NCBI GenBank assembly: GCA_029688905.1
Contig: JARULB010000001.1
Coordinates: 186,001-250,000, forward strand
DNA: 64,000 bases
Source of the DNA: Balneolales bacterium ANBcel1
Lineage (GTDB): Bacteria > Bacteroidota > Rhodothermia > Balneolales > Natronogracilivirgulaceae
Reading direction: 5' to 3'
Part shown: positions 34,373 to 41,635 of the stretch, piece after piece
Layout: every line of letters starts with the position of its first letter
Position numbering within the stretch: the first letter of the stretch is position 1
Translations under genes and position numbers: made by a program
Notes under the pieces: generated by a model
Databases searched by the model: none
Told to the model about the DNA's origin: nothing
Seen by the model: only the letters and a program-made list of their open reading frames with translations

Positions 34373-36445
34373 TTAATAATGAATCAGCTCATCAAGAGCC
34401 TGCCGTATATCACTGTCGTTGGGCAGGACGACATCCTCCAGCTGAGAGGCGTAGGGAATGGGTGAGAATTTGGCGGCCACCCTTCGTATAGGTGCGTCAA
34501 GCGCTTCAAACACATCCGAAGAGATGCGGGCGGCAATTTCGGCTCCCAGTCCCATGAACTCATAATCTTCGTGCAAAATAAGCACGCGTCCGGTTTTGGC
34601 AGCCGAGGCCAGTATGGTTTCGGTATCCAGCGGCTGAATGGTTCGGATATCCAGCACCTCCAGTTCGACCCCTTTGGCCGCATACTCCTTGGCGGCATTC
34701 AACGCTTTCTGCACCATGGCACCGTAGGTGACGATGGTCGCGTCGCGCCCTTCCCGCACCACCGCCGCCTTTCCGATGGGCAGCAGGTAATCGGGACCGG
34801 GCTCGGGGCGCCGGGCGAATCCCTGGCGATAGAGAGCCTTGTGCTCCAGAAACAGAATCGGATCATCGCTCCGGATCGCGGACTTCAGCAGGCCTTTGGC
34901 ATCGGCGGCATTGGACGGCATTACCACCTTCAGGCCGGGGAAATGGGCAAAGGTCGATTCGATATTCTGGCTGTGGCAAAGTCCGCCGTTGATGTAGCCC
35001 CCTACCGGCACCCGGATCACCATGGGCGCGCTGAACTCGTTGTTCGAACGGTAGCGGAGTGAGTCAATCTGGTTCTTGACCATCTCCATGGCAGGCCAGA
35101 TATAATCACCGAACTGGATCTCGGGCACGGGCTTCATCCCACGGATAGCAAGGCCACAGGCGGTTCCCAGGATAGAGGCCTCGGAAAGCGGACTGTTATA
35201 GCATCGCTCCTGACCAAACTTTTCGGTAAGCCCCCGGGTCGCGGTAAACACCCCGCCTTTGTTTCCGGCGACATCCTGCCCAAATACCAGCACCTTGTCG
35301 TTGCGCTCCATCTCCTCGCTAAGCGCATGGTTGATGGCATCCACCATCACCGTGAGTTCCCCGTCCGGCTTGCCATTTTCATAATTCAGCTCGGCGGGCT
35401 TATCGGAGACCACATGCAGCAACGCTTCCTCCGGTTTGGGGGAATCCTGCCTGTTGCACCATTCCGTGTCCTTTTCAACATGGTTGAAGACATCTTCTTT
35501 CAGTGATTCCAGCTCTTCCTCTTCTGCTATTCCGGCTTCAAGCAGACGCTGTTTGAGCTTGAGCAAGGGGTCATGCATCCATTCCCGCTCCATTTCTCCG
35601 CTGTCACGATATTTTGTCGGGTCATCAGACGAGGAGTGCGGAACCAGCCGAACCACATGCGCATGAACCAGTACAGGCCCCTCTCCGCTGCGTGCCCTAT
35701 CAACCGCCTTCTTCATTGCGGCGAGTGAATTAAAATAGTCGGTTCCATCGGCCTCATAGATGGCCAGGTTTTCAAACCCCCTGACGGTTTTTGATATACT
35801 CTGGTTGCTGGTTTGTTCGGCCAAAGGCACACTGATGGCGTATTTGTTGTCCTGCACCACCAGGACCACCGGGGCCTTGCACAGGGAAGCCCAGTTCAGC
35901 AGTTCGTAAAACACTCCCTGCGAGGTTCCGCCTTCGCCGGTAGAGATATACACGACATCATCCTTGCCCTCCTTTACGGCCGCTTGCGCCACGCCGAGGC
36001 CGGGAAGGAACTGGGCGCCGATAGAGCTGGAAACGGAGACAATGTGGTGCTTTCTGCTGTTAAAATGGGACGGCATCTGCCGCCCGCCCGAGGGGTCGGT
36101 CACCTTGCTGAGGTGGGCCGAGAGGATATCACGTGACGTCAGGCCGAATCCGACCGAAAAAGCCAGGTCGCGGTAATAGGGCATCGCCCAGTCCTGCTTC
36201 TTTCTCAGCGCGTGCGCGGAAGCCAGCTGAATCGCCTCGTGTCCGGAGCATCCGACATGAAAATGGCCCCTTCCCTGCTTAAGCAGGATCAGCATCTTTT
36301 CGTCGAGCCTTCTGACCAGAAGCATCTCCCTGTAAACAGCCAGCAGCTCCTCTTTCGACAGTGATGAAATCGGTGTTGAGCGAACCTTGAACTCGGAATC
36401 CTGCTCTACCAGGGAAGATAGCTTTGAGGGGGTTTTAACAGTCAT
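34373..36445 (-). CDS. Fused alpha-beta E1 subunit of a 2-oxoacid dehydrogenase (branched-chain or pyruvate type)
   Basis: The 690-residue product joins both E1 subunits in one chain. Residues about 25-320 are the alpha part with the thiamine diphosphate site (GEGGTSQGVFYELLNWASL and DNKYAIS). Residues about 365-690 are the beta part (LVFGQDVAGNKGGVF, GLAIRGMKPVPEIQF, ILHEDYEFMGLGAEIAARI). It decarboxylates a 2-oxoacid and passes the acyl group to a lipoyl E2, which is not encoded here. Sequence features are closer to 2-oxoisovalerate dehydrogenases than to single-chain AceE. Branched 2-oxoacids would yield branched acyl-CoA primers for fatty acids, but the substrate cannot be fixed from sequence alone. 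Confidence 0.88.
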   Translation of the reverse strand: MTVKTPSKLSSLVEQDSEFKVRSTPISSLSKEELLAVYREMLLVRRLDEKMLILLKQGRGHFHVGCSGHEAIQLASAHALRKKQDWAMPYYRDLAFSVGFGLTSRDILSAHLSKVTDPSGGRQMPSHFNSRKHHIVSVSSSIGAQFLPGLGVAQAAVKEGKDDVVYISTGEGGTSQGVFYELLNWASLCKAPVVLVVQDNKYAISVPLAEQTSNQSISKTVRGFENLAIYEADGTDYFNSLAAMKKAVDRARSGEGPVLVHAHVVRLVPHSSSDDPTKYRDSGEMEREWMHDPLLKLKQRLLEAGIAEEEELESLKEDVFNHVEKDTEWCNRQDSPKPEEALLHVVSDKPAELNYENGKPDGELTVMVDAINHALSEEMERNDKVLVFGQDVAGNKGGVFTATRGLTEKFGQERCYNSPLSEASILGTACGLAIRGMKPVPEIQFGDYIWPAMEMVKNQIDSLRYRSNNEFSAPMVIRVPVGGYINGGLCHSQNIESTFAHFPGLKVVMPSNAADAKGLLKSAIRSDDPILFLEHKALYRQGFARRPEPGPDYLLPIGKAAVVREGRDATIVTYGAMVQKALNAAKEYAAKGVELEVLDIRTIQPLDTETILASAAKTGRVLILHEDYEFMGLGAEIAARISSDVFEALDAPIRRVAAKFSPIPYASQLEDVVLPNDSDIRQALDELIHY

Positions 36446-36653: not shown

Positions 36654-37814
36654 TCAGCCAAGCGGCTGGCTGTACATGCGATAGGCCTTTTCGCGAACCG
36701 CGCCGACCTTTTCTACGACTCGCAGGATGCCGGTGTTGTTCTCGAGCAGCCACCCCACTTCGGACGACCGTATCCCCCGGCGGAGTCCGTTAATTATGGA
36801 TTCGCGAATTAAGACGGCATCAATCCCGCGTCCCTGGAACTCGGGGGCGACGCCGGTCAGCGCCGTGCGTATGGCATTGATTTTTCTACGCTTCCAGAGA
36901 AGCTTGAATATACCGGTTGGAAACAGGGTTCCGTCCATATCCTTGAACACCTGGTTGTAATCGGGCAGGGCGATTGAAAAACCTGCCGGTTTGCCGCCTA
37001 CCTCGGCCACATGGGCTAAATCGGTATCGACGATCATGCGCAGGCCTTTGGCCATATGCTCGATCACTTCGCGGTTGATCTCATAGAACCCCCAGTTATC
37101 CTTCCAGGTCTCATTGAAAAGCCGGTGGATGATATCCACTTCGCTTTTGAACTTTCGCAGATTTACAGGGCGGATGGTCAGATCGGGTGTCCGTTTTCTG
37201 ACGATGTCTACGGCCCGGTTCATGCGATTAAGAGCCAGGTTTTCGTCGGTCACCCTGTAGGCCAGCAGGTCCATCTCCTTGACGAGGCCCGCTTTGCGGA
37301 TCATCGGGTCGTACCACGGTTTGGAGTGCGGCATCATGATGGAGGGGCGATGATCAAAACCTTCGATCTGGATCCCGATTTCATCCAGCAAACCCGGGCT
37401 CATGGGTCCGAGCAGCCGGGTGCATCCGCGGTCACGGAGCCAGTCGCGCACCACGCGAAACAGCAGGTCAACCACCATCTGGTTGTCCACCGATTCAAAA
37501 AAACCGAAAAAGCCGGCTGTATCGTTATTGTGCCGGTTATAGGCATGGTTGTGGATGGCGGCGATGCGGCCGGCGACCTCCCCATTGCGGTAGGCCAGGA
37601 ACAACGCTATCTCTGCATCGTTATAAAACGGATTTTTGCGTGTATCGATGAGCTCCTTTTGCAGCATCCTGAGCGGGGGCACCCAGTTCGGATCATCTGC
37701 GTAATGCCGGTAGGGAAGTTCCAGAAACTGTCTGCGCTCATCATCGGTGGTCACCAGGGTAACGCCCAGAAGGTCTTTACCACGAACCTGTTCACTGCCC
37801 GCCACCTTTTCCAC
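36654..37814 (-). CDS. GNAT-fold acyltransferase, probable bacterial ceramide synthase (bCerS type)
   Basis: The 386-residue soluble protein has the two-part GNAT-like layout of the Caulobacter ceramide synthase family. The characteristic N-terminal segment LPYRHYADDPNWVPPLRM and RKNPFYNDAEIALFLA are present at about 33-75, RLLGPMSPGLLDEIGIQIEG is in the middle, and GVAPEFQGRGIDAVL near 320 is the acyl-CoA-binding GNAT motif. In that family the enzyme N-acylates the long-chain base to form ceramide. The gene begins 3 bp after the serine palmitoyltransferase stop on the same strand, which supports this role strongly. Similar proteins exist whose function is untested, so the specific reaction is inferred from family and neighbourhood. 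Confidence 0.68.
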   Translation of the reverse strand: MEKVAGSEQVRGKDLLGVTLVTTDDERRQFLELPYRHYADDPNWVPPLRMLQKELIDTRKNPFYNDAEIALFLAYRNGEVAGRIAAIHNHAYNRHNNDTAGFFGFFESVDNQMVVDLLFRVVRDWLRDRGCTRLLGPMSPGLLDEIGIQIEGFDHRPSIMMPHSKPWYDPMIRKAGLVKEMDLLAYRVTDENLALNRMNRAVDIVRKRTPDLTIRPVNLRKFKSEVDIIHRLFNETWKDNWGFYEINREVIEHMAKGLRMIVDTDLAHVAEVGGKPAGFSIALPDYNQVFKDMDGTLFPTGIFKLLWKRRKINAIRTALTGVAPEFQGRGIDAVLIRESIINGLRRGIRSSEVGWLLENNTGILRVVEKVGAVREKAYRMYSQPLG

Positions 37815-37817
37815 CGG

Positions 37818-39059
37818 CTAAACCTCGATCAGGGAATGGCCGTTGGTGTCGATAATGCCGCGTTTTATCCCCACCTTTCTGAAGGCGGCCAGGATGGCGT
37901 CCAGCTGTTCATCGGTGTGTGTGGCCATGTAGCTGGTGCGTATCAGGGATTGTCCTTTCGGGACGGCCGGCGGCACCACCGCATTGGCATAAACCCCTGT
38001 TTCAAACAAATCTCTCCAGAAGCCGAGACAGTCCATGATCTCGCCGATGACTACCGGGATAATCGGTGACTGGCTTGTCCAGATGTTGAAGCCCAGCTCT
38101 TTGAGCCCCCTGCGCATGTAATTGGAGATCTCCTCGAGGCGCTGCAGCCGCCACTGCTCCTCCTGAAGCACTTCCAGCGCCTTGAGTACGGTGGCCACGT
38201 TGGCGGGCGGCATGGATGCGCTGAAGATGTGGGCCGGGGAGTGATGTCGGATATATTCGATGACAGCGCGATCACCCACCAGAAACCCGCCGAGGGAGGC
38301 GAATGACTTGGAAAACGTGCCGCTGATCAGGTCTACATCATCCAGAAGCCCGAACGAGGAAGCCGATCCCCTTCCGCCCTCGCCGAGCACGCCGATCGCG
38401 TGGGCGTCATCCAGATAAATACGGGCGTTAAATTCCTTGCCGAGTGCCACCAGTTCAGGCACCTTTGCCAGCGTCCCGGACATGGAGAAAACGCCGTCAC
38501 TTACGATTATTTTTCCGGTGGATTCGTCCTCGCGCTCCAGAAGCTTTCGAAGATGACCCATATCATTGTGATGATAACGGACGGTACGGGCGTTGGAGAT
38601 GATGGTTCCGATGACGATACACGCGTGGTTGTCCTTGTCGGAGAAGATCACGTCGTTACGACCGGCGATGGTCTGGATGGATCCCTCGTTGGTCTGATAG
38701 CCGGTGCTGAAAAGGACACAGTTTTCCTTATTCATAAATGCGGCGAGCTTGTCCTCAAGCTCAAGGTGCAGATCAAGCGTACCATTCAGATACCGCGAAC
38801 CCGTACAGCCGGTGCCATACTTTGAGATAGCCCCCTGTGCCGCTTCCATCAGCCGCCGGTCGTTGGTAAGTCCCAGGTAGTTGTTGGAGCCGGCCATAAT
38901 AACCTCATGCCCCTCGATAACAACCACATTTCCGTCGGTGTCGGTAAGCGGTTTGAAATAGGGATACAGGCCCTGGGCCTTGACCTCATCAGCAGCAGTA
39001 AACTGATGGACTTTGTCAAAGATGTCGGCTTTTTGAATACTTTGGTCGCTGTTCGCCAT
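37818..39059 (-). CDS. spt: Serine palmitoyltransferase (alpha-oxoamine synthase)
   Basis: The 413-residue PLP enzyme shows the alpha-oxoamine synthase fold. The segment GTGCTGSRYLNGTLDLHLELE-like at about 95-115 (TGSRYLNGTLDLH), the N-terminal PYFKP and NNYLGLTNDRRL are the usual marks of bacterial serine palmitoyltransferases as opposed to glycine C-acetyltransferase or BioF. Lys 251 in SGTFSKSFASLGG binds PLP, and DDAHAIGVLGEGGRG lies upstream of it. It condenses serine with an acyl-CoA or acyl-ACP to 3-ketosphinganine, the first step of sphingolipid synthesis. It is the first gene of a two-gene operon with the ceramide-synthase-like gene, and a CerR-like reductase lies 1.6 kb away. Confidence 0.87.
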   Translation of the reverse strand: MANSDQSIQKADIFDKVHQFTAADEVKAQGLYPYFKPLTDTDGNVVVIEGHEVIMAGSNNYLGLTNDRRLMEAAQGAISKYGTGCTGSRYLNGTLDLHLELEDKLAAFMNKENCVLFSTGYQTNEGSIQTIAGRNDVIFSDKDNHACIVIGTIISNARTVRYHHNDMGHLRKLLEREDESTGKIIVSDGVFSMSGTLAKVPELVALGKEFNARIYLDDAHAIGVLGEGGRGSASSFGLLDDVDLISGTFSKSFASLGGFLVGDRAVIEYIRHHSPAHIFSASMPPANVATVLKALEVLQEEQWRLQRLEEISNYMRRGLKELGFNIWTSQSPIIPVVIGEIMDCLGFWRDLFETGVYANAVVPPAVPKGQSLIRTSYMATHTDEQLDAILAAFRKVGIKRGIIDTNGHSLIEV

Positions 39060-39360
39060 TTAGCAAGGTGTCCTTTGGGCTCAATAAAACTTTAAAAATA
39101 ATCAAAAAAACAGTTCACCTGCAATTAAAACTCATTTCTTACCCGGAGAGTCGTCAACAGGCCCCGTTTCATTAATTTGCCGGAATGAGTGGTTCACAGA
39201 ATTGATAGCTGGTTCACGGAATCCGGGTTCCATAGCCATTATCGGTGGAATTTACCTTCCGGCTTAAAATGACCTTCCCGCTCCTCCAGAGTACAATAAC
39301 ACAAAAAATGTGGTTAAACAACAGGTAAAGCTCAGAAGATTTCCCCTTCCCGGCAGAAGA
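39060..39360. other. Intergenic gap upstream of spt
   Basis: This 301-bp stretch has no supported gene. It is A/T-rich near 39090-39125 and should contain the spt promoter; I see no clear -7/-33 pair or operator. Confidence 0.4.
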
Positions 39361-40488
39361 CTAAATCACCTCGTTATAACAGGCGACAAGAGAGTCCATG
39401 ATCCGTTCCCAGTCGTATTGTAACGATTTTTTCCGGGAAGCTACCGCCATATGATTTCGAATATCCTCATTTTCCGAAATATGAAGGATATGTTCGAGGA
39501 AAGCTTTCTTGTCCATCGACCCCGCCCGAAATCCATTTTCATTGTTTTCTACCAGCGACCTGCTTCCAGAGGCTTCCGCCACTACCGCAGGCAGACCTGA
39601 AGCCATCGCTTCAAGGGTCACATTCCCAAAGGACTCGGTATCGGAGGGGAAGAAAAACAGATCGCTGCAGGCGTAGGACCTTGCAAGTTCCTCGCCTTCC
39701 AGATGGCCGGTAAAAACCGTATCGGGCAGTATTTCCGACAACTCCTGACGGGCAGGACCATCCCCCACTATCATGGTGCGGATCGCAGGGTTTCGCCTGC
39801 GCAGCTCCTGAAATATTTCCGCGACCACCATCAGGTTTTTCTCCCAGACCAGCCGTGAAACAAATGTCACCACAAAATGCCCCTCCTTAAACCCTTTTTC
39901 TGCCCGCCAAGCTTCGTTTTTCTTGTCCGGATTGAACAACTCCGTATCCACCCCCCTGCTCCAAAGCTTCAGCTCGGTTTCCACACCCAGCTTCTTGAGA
40001 TCTTCCAGCATGGAGGGAGAAGGGATGTACAGATGCTCGCAATGCCTGTAGAACCAGAGGAGATAAGTCGTAAGCAGGGGCGCGATGAACCCCATCCGGT
40101 AATACTTCAGATAGCTTGAGAAATGGGTATGATAGGATGCTACCGCCGGTATGCCGTTCTTCATCGCGAACCGCAATGCCATGAAACCGAGAATATCGGG
40201 GGTTGCGATGTGAATCAGGTCGGGTTTGAACTCCCGGAGCAGCTCCTTTTCGGTCTCCGGCAAACCCATGCTGATCCGGTACTCCGGGCGGCCGGGCGCC
40301 GGTACCGCGTAGACCGGGATGTAGGTGCCGTTATGCTCGATAACCGGGTCGGGTGACCATGGCCCGAATACGCGTACCTCGAATTCCTTTGCCTCCAGAT
40401 GGCCTACAAGTCTGTTCAGAGTATTTGAGACCCCATCGCGAATGTGGTTGTAATTCCCGGTAAAAATAGCGATACGTCGCTTACGCAT
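39361..40488 (-). CDS. GT4-family glycosyltransferase, possibly glycolipid-forming
   Basis: The 375-residue product has the GT-B fold. The N-terminal domain (TGNYNHIRDGVSNTLNRLV, HIATPDILGFMALRFA, ASYHTHFSSYLKYY) resembles SQD2/MgtA-type enzymes that glycosylate lipids. The C-terminal domain carries FVSRLVWEKNLM, MIVGDGPARQEL and the nucleotide-sugar EX7E-type block SDTESFGNVTLEAMASG. Donor and acceptor cannot be read from the sequence. Because it lies between spt and the CerR-like gene, with its start codon about 175 bp from the divergent reductase start, head-group glycosylation of ceramide or diacylglycerol is a reasonable guess. There is no signal peptide; it probably acts at the cytoplasmic membrane face. 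Confidence 0.8.
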   Translation of the reverse strand: MRKRRIAIFTGNYNHIRDGVSNTLNRLVGHLEAKEFEVRVFGPWSPDPVIEHNGTYIPVYAVPAPGRPEYRISMGLPETEKELLREFKPDLIHIATPDILGFMALRFAMKNGIPAVASYHTHFSSYLKYYRMGFIAPLLTTYLLWFYRHCEHLYIPSPSMLEDLKKLGVETELKLWSRGVDTELFNPDKKNEAWRAEKGFKEGHFVVTFVSRLVWEKNLMVVAEIFQELRRRNPAIRTMIVGDGPARQELSEILPDTVFTGHLEGEELARSYACSDLFFFPSDTESFGNVTLEAMASGLPAVVAEASGSRSLVENNENGFRAGSMDKKAFLEHILHISENEDIRNHMAVASRKKSLQYDWERIMDSLVACYNEVI

Positions 40489-40663
40489 GGTCGGTTGTTC
40501 TCGGTATTATCGGCATTATATCGCTTTATTCCCTTGCGGGATCGCGATATATTCCAGCTGTATCTTAACGTCTGTTTTCGCACATTCCCATCCGGTTATG
40601 TGCAACGATGAGATCATCATCCAAAATAATTGGAAAAACATACCCCAAGTATACAAATTTTTC

Positions 40664-41635
40664 ATGAAAGCATTTGTTACCGGTGGAACCGGATTTATCG
40701 GAAGTCATCTTGTCGACGAACTCCTGAAAAAACCGAATGACCAGATCCGTTGCCTGGTGCGGTCAAAGGACAAATGGCTGCACGACAAGGATATCATCCG
40801 AATAAAAGGGAATCTGCAGGATCTTGACGCCCTCGAGGAAGGCATTGCAGGCGCGGATGTCGTTTATCATATAGCCGGACTGGTGATGGCATCCAGCCAG
40901 GATCAGTTCGACAAGGCCAATGTGGAGGCGACCGAAAATGTACTCCGGCTTGCCATGAAGCACAGGGTTCCCAAAATGGTTGTGCTGTCCTCGCTGGCGG
41001 CAGCCGGACCCAGTTTTAAACGCCCGGTCAACGAAGAGGATGAGATGATGCCCGTGACCCGCTACGGCGAATCCAAAAAACGGATGGAGGAGATGATCCG
41101 GAATGTTGCCGACGAACGCATTTCCGTGACCATCATTCGCCCACCGGCCGTATATGGCCCCCGGGAAGACCAGATTTTCAGCGTCTTTCAAATGGCCTCC
41201 TGGCGCCTCTTTCCGATTATCGGTGACGGACAAAGCGCCCGCATCTCCCTGATTCATGTCGATGACCTGGTCGCCGGCATTCTGCTGGCCGCCGATGAAA
41301 AAGAGGCGGGGACCGAGACCTACTTTATCTCCAGCGAAACGGACTACACCTGGGATGAAATCCGTCATGCCACCCAGGCCGCCTTCGGCCACAAACTTTT
41401 CACCCTGAACATCAAACCGCGAATTGTCGAACATATCGGTGCCGCAGCAGAATTTGCCGCATCATTAATCGGCCGCTACCCCGTTATTAACCGCGACAAG
41501 GCGAAGGAACTGGGCATGCAGTGGACCTGCTCGGTCGGGAAGGCTTCCGGCCGGCTCGGCTTCCGGCAGAAAGTCTCGCTGAGCGACGGCATCGCAGACA
41601 CCATCGCCTGGTACAAACGTCACCACTGGCTCTGA
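40664..41635 (+). CDS. NAD(P)-dependent extended SDR, probable ceramide-pathway reductase (CerR-like)
   Basis: Start ATG 40664 gives MKAFVTGGTGFIGSHLVDEL, a standard Rossmann N-terminus with the TGGTGFIG dinucleotide-binding motif; the open frame upstream to 40487 is not coding-like. The 323-residue product has the catalytic Tyr-Lys pair in YGESKK (about residue 142) and an upstream Ser in LSSLAAAGP. It belongs to the NAD-dependent epimerase/dehydratase superfamily, as does Caulobacter CerR, which reduces the keto group of the sphingolipid precursor. Sharing a neighbourhood with spt and the bCerS-like gene makes that role likely, but a nucleotide-sugar or other SDR function cannot be excluded. 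Confidence 0.65.
   Translation: MKAFVTGGTGFIGSHLVDELLKKPNDQIRCLVRSKDKWLHDKDIIRIKGNLQDLDALEEGIAGADVVYHIAGLVMASSQDQFDKANVEATENVLRLAMKHRVPKMVVLSSLAAAGPSFKRPVNEEDEMMPVTRYGESKKRMEEMIRNVADERISVTIIRPPAVYGPREDQIFSVFQMASWRLFPIIGDGQSARISLIHVDDLVAGILLAADEKEAGTETYFISSETDYTWDEIRHATQAAFGHKLFTLNIKPRIVEHIGAAAEFAASLIGRYPVINRDKAKELGMQWTCSVGKASGRLGFRQKVSLSDGIADTIAWYKRHHWL

Follow-up and report, generated by a model that had tools for sequence, protein, structure and literature searches.

Predicted ceramide synthesis genes with closely coupled spt and cerS form a divergent cluster in Balneolales bacterium ANBcel1

Does a group of neighboring genes in Balneolales bacterium ANBcel1, a member of the Bacteroidota class Rhodothermia, encode a route to ceramide? 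The genes are located in a 64,000-nucleotide stretch of contig JARULB010000001.1 (positions 186,001 to 250,000, hereafter the window), which is part of a genome of 3.3 Mb that is 98% complete. According to the original prediction, this stretch encodes all three activities of the known bacterial ceramide route, which are those of Spt, bCerS and CerR, and the results of the sequence tests named with it were all in its favor. Overall, the original prediction is largely supported, and it is highly probable that the locus represents the bacterial ceramide (dihydroceramide) pathway of this member of the Rhodothermia. The open reading frames were confirmed at the following positions.

36654-37814, minus strand: bcerS, GNAT N-acyltransferase gene, 386 amino acid residues as called from a GTG start; assigned from PF00583, the Caulobacter matches and the tree
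37818-39059, minus strand: spt, serine palmitoyltransferase gene, 413 amino acid residues with the PLP lysine K251 and A281; assigned from the PDB matches and the tree
39361-40488, minus strand: GT4 glycosyltransferase gene between spt and cerR; assigned from PF13439/PF00534
40664-41635, plus strand: cerR, extended SDR reductase gene, 323 amino acid residues with TGGTGFIG and YGESK motifs; assigned from the reciprocal best hit and the tree

On the minus strand, the GTG called as the start of the GNAT gene (37814) follows the stop codon of spt (37818-37820) at 3 bp, which is the gap that had been noted. This GTG start is uncertain, as the alignment of relatives begins only at about residue 15-18. 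The SDR open reading frame opens at 40487, and the Rossmann motif and all homologs begin at the ATG at 40664, which gives a polypeptide of 323 residues. The SDR gene was also said to be 1.6 kb away across the GT4 gene, and the starts of spt and the SDR gene were indeed 1604 bp apart. Given that the SDR gene is on the opposite strand, the gene set is a divergent cluster and not a single operon. A scan of the locus for consensus promoters and terminators found nothing above chance.

When the spt product was compared with all solved structures in the PDB, the closest solved enzyme was SPT of Sphingobacterium multivorum (3A2B) with 408 bits, followed by the next family with 283 bits, and the two cysteate acyltransferases scored 238 and 230 bits. 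The window protein possesses the alpha-oxoamine synthase residues K251, H145, D218, H220, R374 and A281, and the PLP residues and A281 are common to it and the S. multivorum enzyme. Lys281 of the cysteate enzyme versus Ala of Spt was reported as the discriminating residue (PMC9304779). Ala was found at SulA position 281, which has the same number in the window protein, and it was conserved in every Spt relative examined, whereas four flavobacterial-type enzymes had Lys. As a positive control, the one flavobacterial K281 enzyme checked matched the solved cysteate acyltransferases in the PDB. In the Spt tree, the window protein was placed inside a Bacteroidota clade (support 99/96) and together with Spt of S. 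multivorum and Caulobacter on one side of a branch (85/60), apart from Kbl, BioF and the cysteate acyltransferases. Thus, the alpha-oxoamine synthase is identified as Spt, for which a serine-dependent condensation is predicted.

All curated SPT models scored below their thresholds with the window protein, including NF047600 (489 bits versus a cut-off of 640 bits), NF047599 and NF047603, so that automatic annotation would not name this gene spt. Given that the Caulobacter control genome was likewise under the NF047603 cut-off, the low scores limit automatic naming but do not exclude the function. A class relative encodes an extra alpha-oxoamine synthase (L126:1459-2646; G003:C1:832384-833523), which has Ser at position 281 and whose NCBIfam match was the BioF/Kbl-like subfamily TIGR01825.

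The same enzyme superfamilies would also serve a sulfonolipid (capnine) route, with a cysteate acyltransferase as the synthase and ketocapnine as the substrate of the GNAT and SDR proteins. Salinibacter and its allies have been reported to contain halocapnines (PMC5167729), SulA of Alistipes and the flavobacterial cysteate acyltransferases belong to the fold superfamily of the window Spt, and related GNATs are combined with K281 cysteate-type enzymes in flavobacterial genomes, adjacent in one case. However, SulA and the flavobacterial enzymes contain K281, are about 35% identical to the window Spt and form a separate clade, whereas the window protein contains A281 and clearly clusters with Spt. 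Moreover, the flavobacterial genomes checked lacked a close SDR. No K281 enzyme was detected in the ANBcel1 genome, and as Kbl was the only other alpha-oxoamine synthase detected at this level of completeness (98%), a sulfonolipid route looks absent. Residue 281 and the tree led to the rejection of this route, which is extremely improbable.

Another alternative concerns the substrate, as a synthase preferring alanine or glycine would produce 1-deoxysphingolipids by an otherwise unchanged pathway. Both amino acids are used by SPT, though poorly (PMC10196870), and a Black Sea study reported Bacteroidota-linked 1-deoxyceramides (PMC11334938). The close similarity of the window Spt to a serine-preferring SPT, however, speaks against this alternative, which we regard as very unlikely.

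PF00583 was found in the GNAT protein with 23.9 bits versus a cut-off of 20.7 bits, and in the last third of this protein, the family profile matched acetyltransferase (GNAT) structures. An AlphaFold2 model of this protein made without an alignment had a pLDDT of 33 and was discarded. For comparison with Caulobacter, three genomes of close Caulobacter species stood in for C. vibrioides, and in each of them the best matches of all three window proteins were at one locus, in line with the predicted relationship. The SDR match was beside spt and the GNAT match was about 7 to 9 kb off in these three genomes, as published (PMC11324152). The identities of Caulobacter CerS and CerR to the window proteins were only 31–34%; the GNAT match, at 33–34% identity, was the sole one in each of the three genomes and was part of the spt/cerR locus. 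The GNAT family was present in 285 of the 296 genomes of the phylum, in strong and weak forms. Caulobacter CerS clustered with the strong form. Flavobacterial genes from genomes with the cysteate enzyme are among those of the weak form, although this form is not confined to such genomes, as it is located between Spt and SDR genes in G033. In the tree, the window GNAT, which had been predicted to be of the bCerS type, joined Caulobacter CerS, apart from the flavobacterial GNATs. The GNAT protein is thus identified as bCerS, a predicted N-acyltransferase of the sphingoid base. In G103 (G103:C1:3472093-3474496), a Lys281 cysteate-type acyltransferase gene adjoins a CerS-related GNAT gene on the opposite strand, and this GNAT would be a candidate N-acyltransferase for sulfonolipids.

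The SDR had been described as CerR-like, and it was the reciprocal best hit of Caulobacter CerR. Its best matches in the three Caulobacter genomes scored 100, 92 and 84 bits, with the next matches at 61, 40 and 52 bits, and in the reverse search Caulobacter CerR matched the window SDR with 103 bits and the next protein with 33 bits. The TGGTGFIG and YGESK sequences correspond to the TGxxGxxG and YxxxK motifs. Pfam and NCBIfam class the protein with the extended SDRs, and its best NCBIfam match was HpnA with 136 bits, far under the cut-off of 368 bits; it could therefore be a nucleotide-sugar epimerase or a hopanoid-type enzyme that serves the GT4 protein instead of CerR. Grouping with nucleotide-sugar epimerases would have spoken for such a role, but the window SDR was placed with Caulobacter CerR and the Spt-adjacent SDRs of Bacteroidota, apart from 30 other epimerase-type SDRs. 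The clade with Caulobacter CerR had moderate support (84/92), and one long-branched Caulobacter paralog was beside CerR. Spt-adjacent SDR orthologs are present in other Bacteroidota, including distant loci in which no gene like the window GT4 was found. With the reciprocal hits and this context, a nucleotide-sugar epimerase role was rejected, and an epimerase or hopanoid-type SDR is highly improbable. Moreover, the SDR ortholog tracks Spt, as the two flavobacterial genomes checked that lacked a close Spt also lacked a close SDR. Among the genomes listed, 20 had no SDR match, and a close CerS was missing in 19 of these. The SDR is thus identified as CerR, a predicted ceramide reductase.

The sequences show the identity, clustering and orthology of the three genes, and we infer from them that the enzymes catalyze the predicted steps in the proposed order, that the membrane contains ceramide and that the GT4 protein acts on it. 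On the same grounds, the bacterium is very probably a sphingolipid producer.

The arrangement of these genes is conserved. In all 23 order relatives inspected, spt and cerS were on one strand and the SDR gene was divergent with GT4 in between; the gap between spt and cerS was at most 23 bp, or the two genes overlapped, in 22 of them. With 23 of 23 order relatives sharing it, the arrangement is not a product of chance. Synteny within the order was not counted by itself as functional evidence, as mutY, a DUF2400-like gene and others are also syntenic there. Among class relatives outside the order, spt and cerS were together in most, with the SDR gene elsewhere. In 17 more distant loci, which were selected for diversity and not for context, spt adjoined cerS in 10. 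Furthermore, 32 loci from other Bacteroidota classes, selected because their SDR and GNAT genes lay close together, all had spt between the GNAT and SDR genes in the divergent layout of the window, without GT4. The window locus thus corresponds to the module common among Bacteroidota, into which a GT4 gene has been inserted between cerR and spt, and the ceramide cluster is widespread in Bacteroidota and not special to this lineage.

Similarities and differences were also found between the window and characterized systems. The three activities predicted for the window genes are those of spt (CC_1162), cerR (CC_1164) and cerS (CC_1154) of Caulobacter crescentus. In Caulobacter, however, cerS is in a separate operon about 8 kb off and aasR and acpR accompany spt (PMC11324152), whereas in the window cerS follows spt by 3 bp and cerR is divergent. 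In Proteobacteria, acpR and aasR are companions of spt (PMC9386255); neither was found beside the window spt. The ceramide genes of Bacteroides include BT_0870 for SPT and, in B. fragilis, BF9343_4218 for CerS and BF9343_4240 for CerR, and a classical-SDR ketosphinganine reductase, BT_0972, is additionally present in B. thetaiotaomicron (PMC9278070). The genomes of group f24, which were taken to be Bacteroidaceae, contained orthologs of all three genes, with the SDR gene divergent beside spt as in the window; different from the window, their cerS was elsewhere in the genome.

While the window set belongs to the known bacterial ceramide pathway, its unusual point is the tight coupling of spt and cerS. 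A published statement that bacterial cerS and spt "always" belong to separate operons (PMC11324152) is contradicted by the spt-cerS operon. Similarly, the three genes of sphingolipid-producing Bacteroidota were stated not to lie near one another (PMC11334938), which the clustered genes contradict. Moreover, natural fusions of Spt followed by CerS, as single open reading frames of 795–830 amino acid residues, were identified in three genomes, and no earlier report of them was found in a short literature search.

L047:8090-10582, plus strand: Spt-CerS fusion open reading frame of genome G208
L226:851-3313, plus strand: Spt-CerS fusion open reading frame of genome G164
L227:1203-3590, minus strand: Spt-CerS fusion open reading frame of genome G128

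These fusions are the strongest sign that the two enzymes may act in sequence. In the proposed pathway, Spt would condense L-serine with a fatty acyl thioester to form 3-ketosphinganine, bCerS from the spt operon would N-acylate 3-ketosphinganine to ketoceramide, the divergently transcribed CerR would reduce the 3-keto group, and the GT4 protein could possibly add a sugar afterwards. Which of the last two core steps comes first is a matter of dispute in the Caulobacter work (PMC11087976, PMC11324152), where acylation before reduction was argued for, versus reduction first as in eukaryotes. Given that spt and cerS are coupled at 3 bp, that cerR is on a separate divergent transcript and that fusions occur in relatives, acylation before reduction is favored on the basis of gene arrangement. 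The coupling and the fused proteins of relatives make the disputed order testable.

The product of 39361-40488 contains the GT4 domains PF13439/PF00534 and lacked a match in the PDB at 1e-15. Between spt and GT4, 20 of the 23 order relatives have a second, distinct GT4 gene; in the window, the 300-bp gap at 39060-39360 contained neither this gene nor a detectable remnant. As the ceramide galactosyltransferase of Bacteroides fragilis is a GT4 enzyme (PMC9692976), ceramide is a plausible acceptor. Among the relatives' loci examined, however, no such GT4 gene was seen near spt outside the order, which weakens the case, and the GT4 protein is a plausible but weakly supported candidate ceramide glycosyltransferase. 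These observations can be combined in a joint reading, which we offer tentatively and at somewhat under even chances. In it, Spt and bCerS of this branch of Bacteroidota would be physically coupled, in an operon or, in a few relatives, as fused proteins, and 3-ketosphinganine would pass directly to the acyltransferase, with acylation preceding the CerR step; one or more GT4 genes between cerR and spt would encode dedicated ceramide glycosyltransferases, and glycosphingolipids not recorded so far would come from this order. A search of the open literature, with most subscription journals outside its reach, found no report on sphingolipids of this order. As no such report was found in the literature searched, the cluster provides a concrete lipid prediction for this group.

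Finally, 208 bp separate cerS from a downstream gene of the same strand, which encodes a fused E1 alpha/beta 2-oxoacid dehydrogenase (window 34373-36445, minus strand), and a close relative of it is adjacent in some order relatives only. This dehydrogenase might be a source of branched primers for acyl chains.
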